Assembly: GCF_902143375.2 (NCBI RefSeq)
Contig: NZ_CABFVA020000072.1
Coordinates: 1-35,451 of the forward strand
Direction of reading: 5' to 3'
Length of the DNA: 35,451 nt
DNA from: Methylacidimicrobium tartarophylax
GTDB lineage: Bacteria > Verrucomicrobiota > Verrucomicrobiia > Methylacidiphilales > Methylacidiphilaceae
The notes under the pieces were generated by a model. It searched no databases, had not been told where the DNA came from, and was given only the letters and a program-made list of their open reading frames with translations. The stretch's first letter is position 1. The number at the start of each line of letters is the position of its first letter. Shown piece after piece: positions 11,574 to 17,429 of this stretch. The translations under genes and the position numbers were made by a program.

Positions 11574-12055
11574 GAGCCCGCGCTCTCCCCTTGCGCTCGT
11601 TCTCCCTCTCGAAGTCCGATATCCTCATCCCAGGAAGCGGGAGAGCGGCGAATAAAAGAGGCAAGAAGCTCCCGGCACTCCGCGTCGTCTCTCACCTCGA
11701 CCAAGACTCCCTGGCTACGCAAAAGCTCTTCCGAGCCCAGGAAGGTCCGATTCTCTCCGATGACGATCCGCGGGATGCGGTAGAGGAGGATCGCTCCCGT
11801 GCACATCGGGCAGGGCGACAGAGTGGTATAGAGGGTGCAGGACCGGTAGAGGGAAGCGGGTTGCCGACCGAGGCTTTCCAACGCGTCCATCTCGCCATGG
11901 CGAATGACGCTACCCCACTGAATCCTGCGGTTCCGGCCCCGTGCCAGGATCCGGTCCCCCTGGACGATCAGTGCGCCAATGGGGATTCCGCCTTCTGCGA
12001 GTCCCGCCCGCGCTTCCGCGATCGCCGCTTCCAAAAATGGGTCTGAACCCGCCAT
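11570..12055 (-). CDS. Cytosine deaminase, yeast FCY1-like
   Basis: This 161-residue zinc deaminase has the ligands His53 and catalytic Glu55 in IRHGEMDALE and Cys82/Cys85 in LYTTLSPCPMCTGAILLY. The order HGEMDALE, TTLSPCxMCTGAI, RIVIGEN and the C-terminal SWDEDIG match fungal FCY1 cytosine deaminase (cytosine to uracil, pyrimidine salvage) more closely than tRNA adenosine deaminase TadA. The C-terminal lid typical of FCY1 is present. The start at ATG 12055 gives a length almost equal to FCY1 (158 residues); an upstream ATG (12208) would add 51 residues with no family counterpart. Guanine deaminase or a general nucleoside deaminase remains possible. It is coupled to the downstream glycosylase gene by an ATGA overlap. 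Confidence 0.85.
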   Translation of the reverse strand: MAGSDPFLEAAIAEARAGLAEGGIPIGALIVQGDRILARGRNRRIQWGSVIRHGEMDALESLGRQPASLYRSCTLYTTLSPCPMCTGAILLYRIPRIVIGENRTFLGSEELLRSQGVLVEVRDDAECRELLASFIRRSPASWDEDIGLREGERAQGESAGS

Positions 12056-12529
12056 CTCCAAACTTTCCTCAGACCGACCCCTTCCCGTCCAGAAGGTTTT
12101 GCGGCTCCGACGATTCTCTTGGGCGGGAGATTCCAAGGGATGCACAGCAAAAACGTGCTCCACTGTTTCCCGGATTCGACTCTCGGACCATTCCGCAAAA
12201 GTGGACAAGGGGTTTTCGGCCTGGAACCGGATCCTCCCGTCTCCTCGATTCGGTTCGGATGCAAAAAGGGAACAAGAGAGGCGGCGATTGACTTGTCCGC
12301 GCTCTTAATGGCATCTTAAGTTCCAGCAAAGCGGATCCACACGGCCGGCGCTCGGGGAAAAAGCCCTCGAGATGCCGAGCATTCGCGAAGCGACCATGAC
12401 TTCCCCGGCACCTAAAGGGTGAGTCGCACACATTCACCAGTGTAGGAGAAAACGGGAGAGATAAACTACCAGATCCTGGGAGGAGCCGTTTGGTTTGAAA
12501 ATCCGAATTGACCGGGAAGGAGGATCGCT
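12056..12529. other. Divergent intergenic region, deaminase / HAD phosphatase
   Basis: This 474-base gap between divergent genes holds a direct-repeat operator at 12304-12320 (separate entry) and a strong ribosome site for the HAD gene near 12519. No RNA gene is recognisable, and frames through it are low-complexity. A TTGACT at 12288-12293 has no good -10 partner at normal spacing. Confidence 0.5.
12304..12320 (+). promoter_or_regulatory. OmpR/PhoB-type direct-repeat operator, copy 1
   Basis: CTTAAT and CTTAAG are separated by five bases, a perfect fit to the YTTAAK-N5-YTTAAK layout of PmrA-type boxes; the 11-base period is also that of Pho boxes. It lies 209 bases before the HAD gene and 249 bases before the divergent deaminase. 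The flanks resemble copy 2 at 15750-15766, with GCG, one variable base, then TCTTAATG shared. Which regulator binds is unknown. Confidence 0.5.
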
Positions 12530-13288
12530 ATGACCGAAGAGAATCGCATAGAAGCTTCGATAGAGGGAGGCCACCAAGGGAGCGCATCCGGGACAGCAAC
12601 GGCGGGTATCTCGCACGCTTCGCGCGGCAAGGCTCGATGGGCAGCCATCTTTGATTGGGATGGGGTCATTGCCAATTCCGCCGGCCCCCACGAGGAGAGT
12701 TGGCATCGACTCGCTCGGGAGGAAGGACGAACGCTCCCCCCTGGCTTTTTTCTCCCTTCCTTCGGAAGAAAAAATGATTGGGTCATCCCTCATCTGCTCC
12801 ACTGGACGGAGGATCCCCAAGAGATTGTTCGACTCCGCGAGAGGAAGGAAGAACTCTTTCGGGCGATCGTCGCGGAGCAAGGAATCGATCTCTATCCCGG
12901 GGCGCTCGCCCTCTGCCAATCCCTTGCGAAGGCATCGATTCCCGCGGCGATCGCCTCCTCCACGGCGCGGGCCAATATCGAACTCATCCTCGATCAATGG
13001 AACATGCGTGGGCTTTTTCAAGCCCTGGTGGCGGCCGAAGATGTGAGCCGCGGCAAGCCGGACCCCGAGGTCTTCTGTCTTGCCGCCAAAGAGGTTGGGT
13101 TTGCGCCCGAAGAGTGCATCGTTTTCGAGGACGCGCCCGCCGGAGTGGAAGCGGGCAAACGGGCGGGCATGCGGGTGATCGCTGTTACGACGACCAATCC
13201 TGCCGATGCATTGCAGAAAGCGGATCGGACGCTATCCAGCCTTCAGTCGGTAACCCCCGCCCTGATCCAAGACTGGTTCTTTTCCTAA
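12530..13288 (+). CDS. HAD-superfamily phosphatase, beta-phosphoglucomutase-like
   Basis: The 252-residue protein is a HAD subfamily IA hydrolase. Motif I is AAIFDWDGVIANS (nucleophile Asp near residue 43, second Asp two on), motif II is AIASSTARAN, the motif III Lys is in SRGKPDPEVF, and motif IV is CIVFEDAPAGVEAGKRAGM. The cap region between motifs I and II is the helical type used by phosphoglycolate phosphatase and beta-phosphoglucomutase. It most likely acts on a sugar phosphate or phosphoglycolate; which one cannot be told. The ATG has an excellent AAGGAGG site, so the 36-residue Ser/Gly/Ala-rich extension before motif I appears to be translated. It is convergent with the phosphotransferase gene. 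Confidence 0.85.
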   Translation: MTEENRIEASIEGGHQGSASGTATAGISHASRGKARWAAIFDWDGVIANSAGPHEESWHRLAREEGRTLPPGFFLPSFGRKNDWVIPHLLHWTEDPQEIVRLRERKEELFRAIVAEQGIDLYPGALALCQSLAKASIPAAIASSTARANIELILDQWNMRGLFQALVAAEDVSRGKPDPEVFCLAAKEVGFAPEECIVFEDAPAGVEAGKRAGMRVIAVTTTNPADALQKADRTLSSLQSVTPALIQDWFFS

Positions 13289-13364
13289 GCAGGGTCCCGG
13301 CGCCCGTCGACCGACGGGGAGCGGCAACCGCAGAGCAAGTGTTCTCTCGTCCCTCGCTCGTCCC

Positions 13365-13391
13365 GCACCCCATGGGACGCACCCCATGGGG
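13365..13391. repeat. Tandem GCACCCCATGGG repeats
   Basis: Two copies of GCACCCCATGGG start 14 bases apart in the gap between convergent genes; the second extends to the 10-base palindrome CCCCATGGGG. The inverse orientation, CCATGGGGTGC, recurs at 15948-15958 inside the promoter spacer of the SAM-riboswitch operon. The function is unknown. Confidence 0.5.
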
Positions 13392-13433
13392 ACAAACGAT
13401 CCACCGGGCTTCCTGCCGCGCGGTCACCTGACG

Positions 13434-14597
13434 TCAGGCGGCCGCGTTTCCCTGAAATTTCCATTGGCTCGCCCGTTCCATCCTCTCTGCCGGGATTCTA
13501 CCGCTTTGCTCGGCCACCGCGTCGATGAGATGCGGGCAATGGTCTTTGAGCAGCCGGTTCAGGAGATAGACACCAGTGGCATAGATCGCAACCGCCTTCG
13601 CCTCCTTTTCATCTCTGCTGAGATGGAAGGGCATATCGGAGATGAAGTGAATGGCTTCGTTGAACAAGGAAAGCATTGTCACCTGTTCTTCCGACGCATA
13701 CTGGGTAAGCAGTTCCTCCAGTTTCTCCGAAATCTTATTGTACTTGTGGTAGGCCGGCGTCGGGTAAAACCGGAAGTCGATTTCAACGCCGCCCCGCTTC
13801 CCCGCGGTCCAGTCGATGTCAAACTCCTGCCGATGGATCAAATCATACTTGCCGCGGGCCGAATGATAGAGCTTCCCGGCATCATACCAAGGATCGCAAT
13901 ATTCATAGCCTCGAGGATCGACGAGTTTGAACGACCCCGTATCGCGATCGACCAGGATATTGTCGAAATGGAGGTCGCCATGGACGAAGGGCGAGACCCT
14001 GCTCGGCCGCAGACTCCGGCAGAGTTCCGCGTCTTCTTCTATGACCCGAAGGATCTGCGGCGCATTATAGCACTCTTCTCCTTGGACGTAGATCCGATCC
14101 GCTAGAATGATCTCTTCGAACAAGGGAGCTTTCCTCATCGTTTCGGAAAATCGCGCCCAAGCTCTCAGAAAGTGGAGCTCCTCCAAGTAGTCATCCGGAG
14201 GCAGTCTCTCTTCACGGCTGTAGACCTGGGAAAAGAGGAAGTCGAGGATTCGCTTCACCCAGTCGATTCCTTCGCTGGCAGTGGCATCCCCCTCGCAGAG
14301 AATCTTCCTGAGCGTCGGCAGTTGAACGAATTCCTGCTCCATCGCCACCGCCGAGGGCGAAGCATAGTATCGGATGATTCTCGGATATTTCTCGGCAAGA
14401 TCCTGCGGGAGCCGAAGCAGGAACTGAACCTCATCGTTGAGCTTCCGGGCGCCGTCTCCTTTCGCCTCCTTCCTCAGGTACGGAATCACCTTAGTCCCGG
14501 CATGCGATCCGCCGATCCTCCCGATGCCGCCATCGATCCGATTCGGAACTAATTGCCTTTCTTCGAATACACCTTCACCGACCTGCATCTTGATCAT
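13434..14597 (-). CDS. APH-fold phosphotransferase (small-molecule kinase)
   Basis: This 387-residue protein has the aminoglycoside-phosphotransferase/choline-kinase fold. The catalytic loop is FVHGDLHFDNILVD (residues 204-217), the metal-binding motif is LVDPRGYEY (from 225), and an N-terminal GGSHAGTKV plus KGDGARKLNDEVQFLLRLP covers the nucleotide loop and conserved helix. The KGDGARKL...E motif occurs in kinases encoded with polysaccharide or sugar-nucleotide genes, so a sugar kinase is more likely than antibiotic resistance. The ATG at 14597 has GGAGG five bases upstream and lies 23 bases inside the end of the reductase gene, implying translational coupling. No polysaccharide cluster surrounds the pair. 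Confidence 0.8.
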   Translation of the reverse strand: MIKMQVGEGVFEERQLVPNRIDGGIGRIGGSHAGTKVIPYLRKEAKGDGARKLNDEVQFLLRLPQDLAEKYPRIIRYYASPSAVAMEQEFVQLPTLRKILCEGDATASEGIDWVKRILDFLFSQVYSREERLPPDDYLEELHFLRAWARFSETMRKAPLFEEIILADRIYVQGEECYNAPQILRVIEEDAELCRSLRPSRVSPFVHGDLHFDNILVDRDTGSFKLVDPRGYEYCDPWYDAGKLYHSARGKYDLIHRQEFDIDWTAGKRGGVEIDFRFYPTPAYHKYNKISEKLEELLTQYASEEQVTMLSLFNEAIHFISDMPFHLSRDEKEAKAVAIYATGVYLLNRLLKDHCPHLIDAVAEQSGRIPAERMERASQWKFQGNAAA

Positions 14598-15585
14598 AGG
14601 ATCCTCCGTAGGTTTTGGGTTGCGTTTGTCCAGAGTGTCCCCGGCACCCAGACGGCTCCTGAGCGTTCCGGAATTCTTCCGCTACCCGAGCGATCGCGTC
14701 GCGCAGCGGACGGAAATGAAAGCGGCCGGAAGCCGCTTGTAAAAACTTGGCATTCGAAAGCCGCATCGACATCGGCCGCCGAGCGCAACCGGCCGGCACT
14801 TCCGCCGTCTTCTCCAAAATAAGGTCCAAGGGCTTTCCCAAGCACTGAGCCAGCACCCGAGCGAATTCATACTTGGTTGCCGATTCGGAAGGCGCCAGAT
14901 GATAGATTCCCGAGGACGGGGAACCGGCAAGAAGCGCAATGGCCTCCGCCGCCTCTTCCCGCAGCAGAGGGGTCCGGAGCTGGCGGTGGTCATAGGGATA
15001 GCGCTGCTCCGTCCAGAGCCGGTACGCAGTATCCGTGGCGAAATCGCGCCTTTCCGGGGCAGACGTATAGCCAAAGAGAAAGGGGAGTCGAATCACCAGG
15101 TTCTCCGGAAGCTCCAGAACGAGCCGTTCGGCCACCGCCTTGGTCTGGCCATACACTTGCACCGGGCAGACGGGATCTTCTTCCGTATAGAGGCCGTTTT
15201 TTCGGCCGTCGAAAACGTAGTCCGTCGAAAGAAGGACGAGCTTCCTCCGGTGCGCCCTGCAGATTTCGACCAGGTTCCGTGTTCCTTCTACGTTGATCCT
15301 CCAAGCCGATTCGGGACTCTTCTCACAGAGATCCGGATCGGCCAGCGCCGCCGCGTGAATACAGTAGGCAAAGGGGACCTTTTCCAGTGCCCGAACGACC
15401 TCCTCTCCGTTCGTGAGATCGACCATCACAGATTCCGAATCGAGAGGACCAGGACGGCGTGCGAGAGAATAGACTTGCTCCCGGACTGCCAGTCGCTCCA
15501 CGAGCTTTGTTCCTAAAAAACCGCTGGCGCCGGTCACGAGAACGGATTCTCCAAATTGCTGTTTTCTCCGTTTTGCCGTTTCCAC
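14575..15585 (-). CDS. RmlD-like extended SDR reductase/epimerase (GTG start)
   Basis: The product is an NAD(P)-dependent extended SDR: the dinucleotide loop is SVLVTGASGFLGTKL, the active-site Ser/Thr lies in LLSTDYVFDG, and the Tyr-x3-Lys motif is VYGQTKAVAERL. The YVFDG and VYGQTK motifs match the dTDP-4-dehydrorhamnose reductase (RmlD) and MAT2B-like branch. The GTG at 15585 is preferred: GGAGGG lies about seven bases upstream and the Rossmann motif then follows after a short basic stretch. An ATG at 15720 would add 45 residues of unlike sequence. The product is 336 residues. The phosphotransferase start lies within its last codons, so the pair likely modifies one sugar or sugar nucleotide. 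Neither rmlA, rmlB nor rmlC is present. Confidence 0.8.
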   Translation of the reverse strand: METAKRRKQQFGESVLVTGASGFLGTKLVERLAVREQVYSLARRPGPLDSESVMVDLTNGEEVVRALEKVPFAYCIHAAALADPDLCEKSPESAWRINVEGTRNLVEICRAHRRKLVLLSTDYVFDGRKNGLYTEEDPVCPVQVYGQTKAVAERLVLELPENLVIRLPFLFGYTSAPERRDFATDTAYRLWTEQRYPYDHRQLRTPLLREEAAEAIALLAGSPSSGIYHLAPSESATKYEFARVLAQCLGKPLDLILEKTAEVPAGCARRPMSMRLSNAKFLQAASGRFHFRPLRDAIARVAEEFRNAQEPSGCRGHSGQTQPKTYGGSYDQDAGR

Positions 15586-15941
15586 GCCTGCCACCCTCCG
15601 TTCCGGTTCTTTTGGGAACCACCATGCGCTCCATGGCAAACCAACAGAACTCCCATGAGATAAATCGATCAGAAGCAAAACCTTCTTCCCCGGACGGGGA
15701 GGGCAACCACTACATTGCAAATGCGACTCCCCAAATGGGAAGGCGCGATCTTAATGTTATCTTAATCCAGGTTCTCATCCAGTCAACCGGGATTTTCGCT
15801 TTTTCTCGCATAATCCCGCTCCCACGGTTCTTCCCAGGCCGGGCAAGCCAGCGATCGCCGATCCAACCGGATGAGCAAGCCGATCGGGCAATGCGGTACA
15901 CGTGCGGCCCGGTTTTTCCGCAAAAGACTGCTCTTTTGGGA
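15586..15941. other. Divergent intergenic region upstream of riboswitch operon
   Basis: About 356 bases lie between the reductase start and the riboswitch promoter. They hold a direct-repeat operator at 15750-15766 (separate entry) and an AT-rich patch with CATAAT at 15809-15814 that could be a -10 element without a clear -35. No coding sequence is convincing on either strand. Confidence 0.5.
15750..15766 (+). promoter_or_regulatory. OmpR/PhoB-type direct-repeat operator, copy 2
   Basis: Two identical CTTAAT half-sites are separated by five bases (YTTAAK-N5-YTTAAK). The 22-base block around it differs from copy 1 (12304-12320) at only about four positions. It lies 165 bases before the reductase start on the minus side and about 175 bases before the riboswitch promoter on the plus side. 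Confidence 0.5.
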
Positions 15942-15978: not shown

Positions 15979-16099
15979 CTCTTATCAAGAGCGGCGGAGG
16001 GTAACTGGCCCTGCGAAGTCGCGGCAACCGGGGAGAGGCTACAGCCGAACCCGTCAGGTGCCAACCCCAGCTCCGGTGAAAACCGGGGAAGGATGAGAG
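15979..16099 (+). promoter_or_regulatory. SAM-I (S-box) riboswitch aptamer
   Basis: The conserved S-box core is present in order: CTCTTATCAAGAG (15979 on), GGCGGAGGG, ACTGGCCC (16004-16011), CGGCAACC (16022-16029), GGTGCCAA (16057-16064), and the closing GATGAGAG (16092-16099), which pairs with CTCTTATC to form stem P1 with one G-U pair. A further stem CCGGT-GAAA-ACCGG (16073-16086) matches P4 with a tetraloop. SAM-I riboswitches bind S-adenosylmethionine and switch off methionine or sulfur-assimilation genes. The aptamer ends 55 bases before the ATG of the threonine-synthase-like gene and so governs the three-gene operon. Confidence 0.95.
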
Positions 16100-16151
16100 G
16101 GATGAAAATCCCTACTCTAGTCTGTCGCATCGGTAAGAGTGAGAAAGGGAG
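16095..16151 (+). promoter_or_regulatory. Riboswitch expression platform sequestering the ribosome site
   Basis: Two mutually exclusive hairpins can be drawn. Hairpin A pairs AGGGAT (16098-16103) with ATCCCT (16108-16113) around a GAAA loop and can extend into the 3' strand of P1. Hairpin B pairs TCCCT (16109-16113) and ACTCT (16114-16118) with AGGGA (16146-16150) and AGAGT (16136-16140), burying the Shine-Dalgarno AGGGAG. With SAM bound P1 forms, hairpin A is lost and B hides the ribosome site; without SAM, A forms and translation proceeds. No U-tract terminator is seen, so control is probably translational. Confidence 0.65.
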
Positions 16152-16154
16152 CCG

Positions 16155-17429
16155 ATGCAGACCCAATTTTTTGCTCACCTCCGGTGTCGCGAATGCGGCC
16201 GGCTGTATCCCAAGGAAGCGATCCATGTCTGTGAGTGGGACTTTGGCCCGCTGGAGGCGATCTACGACTACGAAGCCATCCGCCGACACGTTTCGCGCAA
16301 ACGGATCGAATCCCGTGCTCCCACGATGTGGCGCTACCGGGAGTTCCTTCCGCTGGAGGGGGAGCCGAGCGTCGGCACTCAGGTCGGATTTACACCGCTG
16401 GTCCGGTCCGAACGCTTGGCGAAGGCCCTCGGTGTGCGGGAGGCCTACGTCAAGAACGACACCGTCAACTACCCTACCCTTTCTTTCAAGGATCGGGTTG
16501 TTGCCATCTCCCTCTCTCGTGCGAAGGAGATGGGATTTACCACCGTCGCCTGCGCCTCCACAGGCAATCTGGCCAACAGCGTTGCGGCTAATGCGGCGAG
16601 CGCGGGCCTGGAAAGCTATGTTCTCATCCCGTCCGACCTGGAAGCGTCCAAGGTTTTGGGGAGCCTGGTTTACGGAACCCGGGTGGTGGGAATTCGAGGC
16701 CCTTACGACAAGGTGAATCGGCTCTGCTCGGAAATCGCCGGGAAATACCAGTGGGCATTCGTCAACGTCAACCTTCGACCCTACTACGCCGAGGGATCGA
16801 AGACCATGGGTTTCGAAATCGCCGAGCAGCTCGGCTGGCGCCTGCCCGCCCACACGGTGATTCCCATGGCCAGTGGTTCCCTCTTGACCAAGATTGCGAA
16901 GTCCTACCAGGAGATGATCGACACGGAGCTGGTCGAAAAAGCACCCTTTGCCATTTACGGGGCCCAAGCCACCGGCTGCAATCCGATCAGCGATGCCTTC
17001 CGGAAGGGCACCGAGCTCGTACAGCCGGTACCCAAGCCGCAAACCATCGCCAAGTCGCTCGCGATCGGCACTCCGGCGGACGGCTACTATGCGATCCAGA
17101 CGATGCGCAAGAGCGGAGGAGCGGCCGAAGATGCTTCCGATGAGGAGCTTCTCGAGGGAATTCGTCTTCTGGCGGAGACCACGGGGATCTTTGCGGAAAC
17201 AGCCGGTGGCGTGACTGTTGCCTGCGCGCGCAAGCTCATCGCCTCCGGGAAGATTCCCAAAGACGGAACGGTGGTGCTTTGTATCACCGGCCATGGCTTG
17301 AAGACCGCCGAAGTTCTGACCGGAGTTTTGGCTCCCCCTCGGGTCATCGAGCCCAGCTTGCGAGAATTCGATCGACTGGTCTCGTCGGACTTGGCCCACG
17401 CGTCCATTCCGGCGAAGATGGAGACTTAA
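16155..17429 (+). CDS. Threonine-synthase-family PLP enzyme under SAM control (candidate homocysteine synthase)
   Basis: This 424-residue fold-type II PLP enzyme resembles threonine synthase. A short Cys-rich N-terminus (CRECGRLYP...HVC, Cys11, Cys14, Cys26) precedes the PLP-lysine motif TLSFKDR (Lys112), the phosphate-cup ASTGNLANSVAANA (134-147) and a C-terminal TGHGLK loop. Classical threonine synthases convert O-phosphohomoserine to threonine. Here the gene follows a SAM-I riboswitch and precedes genes for a Gly-Gly-ending sulfur carrier and a NIL-domain protein. Repression by SAM makes little sense for threonine synthesis but is what a methionine-branch enzyme needs. I infer that it may use O-phosphohomoserine with sulfur from the carrier thiocarboxylate to form homocysteine, by analogy with CysM/CysO. 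A true ThrC with a second role is the main alternative. Confidence 0.8.
   Translation: MQTQFFAHLRCRECGRLYPKEAIHVCEWDFGPLEAIYDYEAIRRHVSRKRIESRAPTMWRYREFLPLEGEPSVGTQVGFTPLVRSERLAKALGVREAYVKNDTVNYPTLSFKDRVVAISLSRAKEMGFTTVACASTGNLANSVAANAASAGLESYVLIPSDLEASKVLGSLVYGTRVVGIRGPYDKVNRLCSEIAGKYQWAFVNVNLRPYYAEGSKTMGFEIAEQLGWRLPAHTVIPMASGSLLTKIAKSYQEMIDTELVEKAPFAIYGAQATGCNPISDAFRKGTELVQPVPKPQTIAKSLAIGTPADGYYAIQTMRKSGGAAEDASDEELLEGIRLLAETTGIFAETAGGVTVACARKLIASGKIPKDGTVVLCITGHGLKTAEVLTGVLAPPRVIEPSLREFDRLVSSDLAHASIPAKMET

Follow-up and report, generated by a model that had tools for sequence, protein, structure and literature searches.

Two copies of a short tandem repeat, 3.4 kb apart on one contig of Methylacidimicrobium tartarophylax, flank a cluster of genes predicted to act on sugars and sugar phosphates, and they raise the question of whether the copies form a shared operator for a transcriptional regulator or are a promoter fragment and an accident of AT-rich intergenic DNA. 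The host is a methanotrophic verrucomicrobium of the Methylacidiphilaceae with a 2.33-Mb genome of 60.7% G+C in 137 contigs, and the stretch analyzed here (the window) is the whole 35,451 nucleotides of contig C72. The reading that we favor, at about an even chance of being right, is that the repeats are a small, lineage-specific pair of candidate operators to which a single OmpR/PhoB-type regulator (a winged-helix response regulator) would bind, a judgment made from sequence and its conservation.

Results

Position and form of the two sites

Both repeats match YTTAAKN5YTTAAK, just as a preliminary description of this DNA had reported. They are the sole matches to that consensus within the window, and the 22-base blocks at 12299-12320 and 15745-15766 share 18 of 22 letters and differ at four positions. 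Its further statement that the sites bracket a HAD phosphatase gene and a reductase/phosphotransferase pair also held when set against the called genes, since both sites fall outside called genes, on either side of the HAD, APH-fold kinase, and RmlD-like reductase genes (Table 1). Site 1 lies upstream of two genes, 210 bp from the ATG of the HAD gene at 12530 on the plus strand and 249 bp from the probable ATG of a tadA-like deaminase gene at 12055 on the minus strand. Site 2 lies about 165 bp before the GTG start of the RmlD-like gene (15585, minus strand), a start inferred from the aligned ATG in relative G002, and precedes a SAM riboswitch by 213 bp. The possibility that the sites are the ends of a mobile element was rejected because their flanks are unlike, and no repeats of at least 12 bases were found inside either of the two intergenic stretches.

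Table 1. Sites, genes, and promoter-like sequence at the locus (positions in the window)
Feature	Position	Strand	Description
Site 1, CTTAATGGCATCTTAAG	12304..12320	+	CTTAAT-GGCAT-CTTAAG tandem half-sites, intergenic
HAD hydrolase, beta-phosphoglucomutase/YqaB-like	12530..13288	+	TIGR02009, 132 bits (cut-off 153)
APH-fold phosphotransferase	13434..14597	-	PF01636, 1.7e-7
RmlD-like NAD-dependent sugar reductase	14575..15585	-	TIGR01214, 163 bits (cut-off 224)
Site 2, CTTAATGTTATCTTAAT	15750..15766	+	CTTAAT-GTTAT-CTTAAT tandem half-sites, intergenic, upstream region of the rmlD-like/kinase pair
Promoter-like TTGACT-N16-TAAGAT	15759..15786	-	Promoter scan; reads toward rmlD

The genes between the sites are unevenly distributed in the family. 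Close orthologues of the RmlD-like reductase occur in G001 and G002, and the APH-fold kinase gene, whose product has no relatives among solved structures in the PDB at an E value of 0.001, is found in 4 of 13 family genomes, with the G006 copy broken. That copy lies beside the HAD gene (L077 3362-4424) in three pieces, with a TAG codon within one of them, and no rmlD match was found in G006. The rmlD/kinase pair seems to decay or to be lost jointly, as in G006.

On the plus strand, the threonine synthase gene thrC is preceded by a SAM-I riboswitch (RF00162, 80 bits; riboswitch and hairpin together span 15979-16158), as it also is in the four relatives that were fetched with thrC (L074-L077). 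Just past the riboswitch, at 16127-16158, comes an 8-bp hairpin whose loop carries AAAGG, which resembles a ribosome-binding site, and whose 3' arm includes the thrC AUG; the arm letters are invariant in all five sequences, and the fold has a z score of -2.95. A further hairpin overlaps the SAM aptamer stem on its 3' side. This arrangement suggests that SAM exerts translational control at the methionine/threonine branch point. For control of thrC, it is T-boxes, not SAM, that are named in passages of PMC12452182.

Conservation in relatives

An exact-pattern search covered 40 genomes, our own (G000) included, and found CTTAATNNNNTCTTAAK in four of them at seven places: three in G000, two in G002, and one each in G003 and G007. 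The reversed control gave two matches over the same 40 genomes. Five of the seven exact matches lie at the HAD-rmlD locus (two in G000, two in G002, one in G003), and the G007 match, which lies in AT-rich DNA, may be due to chance. In G002 both sites are again 3.4 kb apart (site 1 at L075:2445, site 2 at L075:5858) with the gene order unchanged. Not one of the 24 half-site letters differs between G000 and G002; the five changes in the two sites (two plus three) are all in the spacers.

How much weight this retention deserves depends on the surrounding DNA, where identity between G000 and G002 is 0.52 in the site 1 region and 0.72 in the site 2 region. By plain identity, site 1 (15 of 17 letters, against a mean of 8.7) is equaled by 22 of 457 stretches, and site 2 (14 of 17, against a mean of 12.2) is equaled by 105 of 376 and is unexceptional. 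When a mask consisting of the half-sites plus one preceding T each was applied, all 13 positions were identical in 7 of 457 stretches for site 1 and in 5 of 375 for site 2, counts that include the sites themselves. The stretches compared in the mask test and in the identity comparison overlap one another, and other places in both intergenic regions are conserved equally well.

Nearly all of the conservation weight is carried by the comparison of G000 and G002, and only G002 is both complete and distant enough. G003 (L015) has an identical site 1, but its whole region is near-identical and yields little information, and its contig stops inside the HAD gene. G001 has all of the genes; its site 2 reads CTTAATGATAGATTAAC and retains TTAA-N7-TTAA (L074:5383-5399), and its site 1 is absent, the stretch upstream of HAD being devoid of TTAA. 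HAD and thrC are present in G005 and G006, where no rmlD match was found and neither site is present, with no TTAA in the stretches examined. In G004 the sole HAD relative, at 64%, was treated as a paralogue. The co-occurrence of site 2 with rmlD was excluded as evidence, being trivial for a site within the rmlD upstream region. Taken together, the sites have the attributes of an OmpR/PhoB-type operator, namely an 11-bp tandem that is upstream, intergenic, and conserved, in few genomes.

A promoter-like sequence at site 2

A promoter scan placed a promoter-like sequence over site 2, with its -10 hexamer (15764-15759) overlapping the second half-site. The scan gave three promoter-like matches in 4.1 kb, against a shuffle mean of 0.9. 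The counterpart in G002 is TTGACG-N16-TAAGAT with unchanged spacing (two matches in 800 bp, shuffle mean 0.1), and the counterpart in G001, TTGACC-N16-TAATCT, was recognized by eye and falls under the scan threshold. The same scan gave no promoter-like match at site 1, and the idea that both sites are promoters alone was rejected for that reason. Beyond the site 2 promoter, at 15781-15815, a block around GTCAAC..GGATTTTCG.TTTTTC is well conserved between G000 and G002 and may be an upstream promoter element.

Site 2 could therefore be kept merely as the -10 and start region of rmlD, with no regulator involved and with the likeness of site 1 arising by chance, an explanation that we consider somewhat unlikely. 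It accounts for the overlap of TTGAC-N16-TAAGAT with the second half-site in both G000 and G002, and for the G001 version, in which the spacing and TAnnnT are retained by eye and the diverged half-site still fits a -10 element; a further point in its favor is that 13 of 60 shuffled windows contained tandem hexamers at two places. It does not account for the first half-site, which lies outside the -10 element yet is retained in G000, G001, and G002 alike, or for site 1, whose half-sites are intact in G002 at a surrounding identity of 0.52 with no promoter-like match.

If the two sites are operators, a regulator dimer would bind head-to-tail on the two half-sites of each, at an 11-bp offset that puts both on the same side of the helix. 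Bound at site 2, it would mask the -10 element together with the point where rmlD/kinase transcription probably starts and would block RNA polymerase, and from this placement we guess that the effect there is probably repression. The action of the two sites would be local and confined to one lineage, not genome-wide, with the HAD phosphatase and the reductase/kinase pair under common control.

Chance expectation and genome-wide frequency

The exact consensus occurred in none of 100 dinucleotide-shuffled windows, versus twice in the real one, and averaged 0.0125 per window over 400 shuffles. Because the consensus had been chosen post hoc, look-elsewhere shuffles were also made. The 13 of 60 shuffled windows already mentioned held some hexamer repeated at 11 bp in two places; by itself the repeat is therefore not proof. 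When periods of 8 to 13 were allowed, the three such families in the window were reached in 8 of 60 shuffles.

Across the genome, the exact consensus matched five times at four places, one of which (C40:17215) is a palindrome scored on both strands; the reversed-pattern control gave none. At one mismatch there was no enrichment (16 matches versus 33 for the reversed-pattern control), and two mismatches of the narrower pattern CTTAATNNNNTCTTAAT gave no excess either (6 versus 7). With four exact places and no excess at one or two mismatches, the regulon envisaged in the preliminary description was rejected for this consensus on the genome-wide scale. That description had also named a chance frequency across the genome as grounds for abandoning the motif; the frequency is indeed largely that of chance, but this reasoning did not foresee that these two sites would be conserved, and lack of enrichment across a genome does not prevent a motif from being conserved locally.

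The remaining exact place, C43:7315 (in L081 7063-7331), is a fourth CTTAAT tandem, CTTAATGTATTCTTAAT, located 179 bp past a tRNA-Thr(TGT) gene. It lies in AT-richer DNA, and no open reading frame of at least 60 amino acids covers it. Elsewhere in the genus, the exact-pattern search gave no exact match outside the two-site locus, so C43:7315 was set aside.

With the chance and genome-wide counts this weak, the case for anything beyond chance rests on conservation in relatives. That the sites are simply two AT-rich tandem hexamers, spotted post hoc in intergenic DNA, is in our view unlikely. The look-elsewhere shuffles and the genome-wide counts, which do not exceed the control at either one or two mismatches, are what this explanation would predict, and the site upstream of HAD is missing in three of the five relatives for which an orthologous HAD region was fetched. 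It is opposed by the fact that both places were fixed before G002 was seen and were then recovered there, and by the mask test.

Likeness to known systems

In form, the sites are like PmrA boxes. PMC3973317 gives the PmrA box of Klebsiella pneumoniae pbgP as TCTTAATATTATCCTAAGC, reports that the DNA-binding domain prefers CTTAAT, and describes the Salmonella form as CTTAAG-N5-xTTAAT and the box as a first half of CTTAAT or CTTAAG, five bases, and a second half of xTTAAT or CCTAAG. Compared with TCTTAATATTATCCTAAGC as it appears there, sites 1 and 2 are the best two places in the window, with 16 and 14 of 19 letters (the next has 13), and both have head-to-tail half-sites 5 bp apart. The likeness to the PmrA (BasR) box of the Enterobacteriaceae extends to the half-sites, the five-base spacer, the head-to-tail arrangement, the promoter position, the T before the first half, and the AT before the second. 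These matches, together with the retention of the sites in G002, lend support to the OmpR/PhoB-type tandem layout that the preliminary description had recognized. The differences are that the present sites belong to another phylum, without a regulon, an EptA N-domain, or, among the six regulators scanned, one over the cut-off, and that site 2 sits on the -10 region, unlike the PmrA box. Membership in the PmrA system fails on the regulator and the target genes.

Other family members offer further parallels. The sites of QseB and other OmpR/PhoB regulators have the TTAA core and the 11-bp direct repetition seen here; their regulator and target genes differ. The Pho boxes of PhoB and SphR are also 11-bp direct repeats, with half-site letters other than YTTAAK, so that the repeat is shared and the letters differ.

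Candidate regulators

Seven OmpR-type DNA-binding domains were found in the genome, and six of the regulators (L019-L024) were scanned with family models; L025, the seventh, was left out. The best models were the TIGR01387 heavy-metal group for L019, L022, and L023, KdpE for L021, and PhoB for L020 (226.7 bits, cut-off 296.2) and, weakly, for L024. None of the six passed the cut-off of the PmrA or PhoB model or that of its own best model, and none qualified as a PmrA-family regulator, the top PmrA score being 195.1 (L019) against a cut-off of 330.

According to PMC4660055, N188 and N196 of PmrA read bases, T187, V192, and H195 make contacts, and R210 enters the minor groove. Aligned to BasR chain 8jo2_H, with residue numbering assumed to be common with PmrA, L019 keeps T187, N188, V192, and R210 and has Q at 195 and K at 196. 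N188 and N196 occur together in none of the six regulators; L023 has N188 only and L024 has N196 only. At the regulators' own loci, the motif scan gave nothing better than two mismatches among the matches listed, and the regions surrounding the regulators and phoU yielded no lead.

A speculative extension, which we regard as very doubtful, is that a response regulator of the copper/heavy-metal (CusR-like) branch, such as that at C12:46157, independently reads a PmrA-type box, and that the two operators make up a private sugar-phosphate switch for the HAD, kinase, and reductase genes next to the SAM-riboswitch-controlled thrC.

The preliminary description had also likened the sites to Pho-type and PmrA boxes, and neither link was supported. 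No match to the EptA N-domain (PF08019) was found in the genome, and a connection to EptA-type lipid A modification was rejected on that ground. The three PstS-like (PF12849) loci contain no YTTAAKN5YTTAAK at up to two mismatches, the contigs that carry them (C15, C74, and C10) have no one-mismatch matches, and the Pho link was rejected as well. A phoU gene is present, and the matches to the E. coli-type Pho box listed around it are all degenerate (2 to 4 mismatches). That PhoB or PmrA itself binds the sites and connects the enzymes with phosphate or envelope stress is highly improbable, as the PmrA box match, phoU, and the PhoB-like L020 are outweighed by the box-free PstS-like loci, the missing EptA N-domain, and PmrA scores that stop so far short of the required bits.

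Discussion

The locus is best described as a pair of candidate operators in one lineage, alike in form to the box of a distant response regulator and placed where a bound protein could act on two neighboring transcripts. Our literature searches found neither PmrA together with Methylacidiphilum nor such a site there, which is no proof of absence. If real, the pair would be the first candidate binding site, with target genes, of an OmpR-type regulator in the verrucomicrobial methanotrophs.
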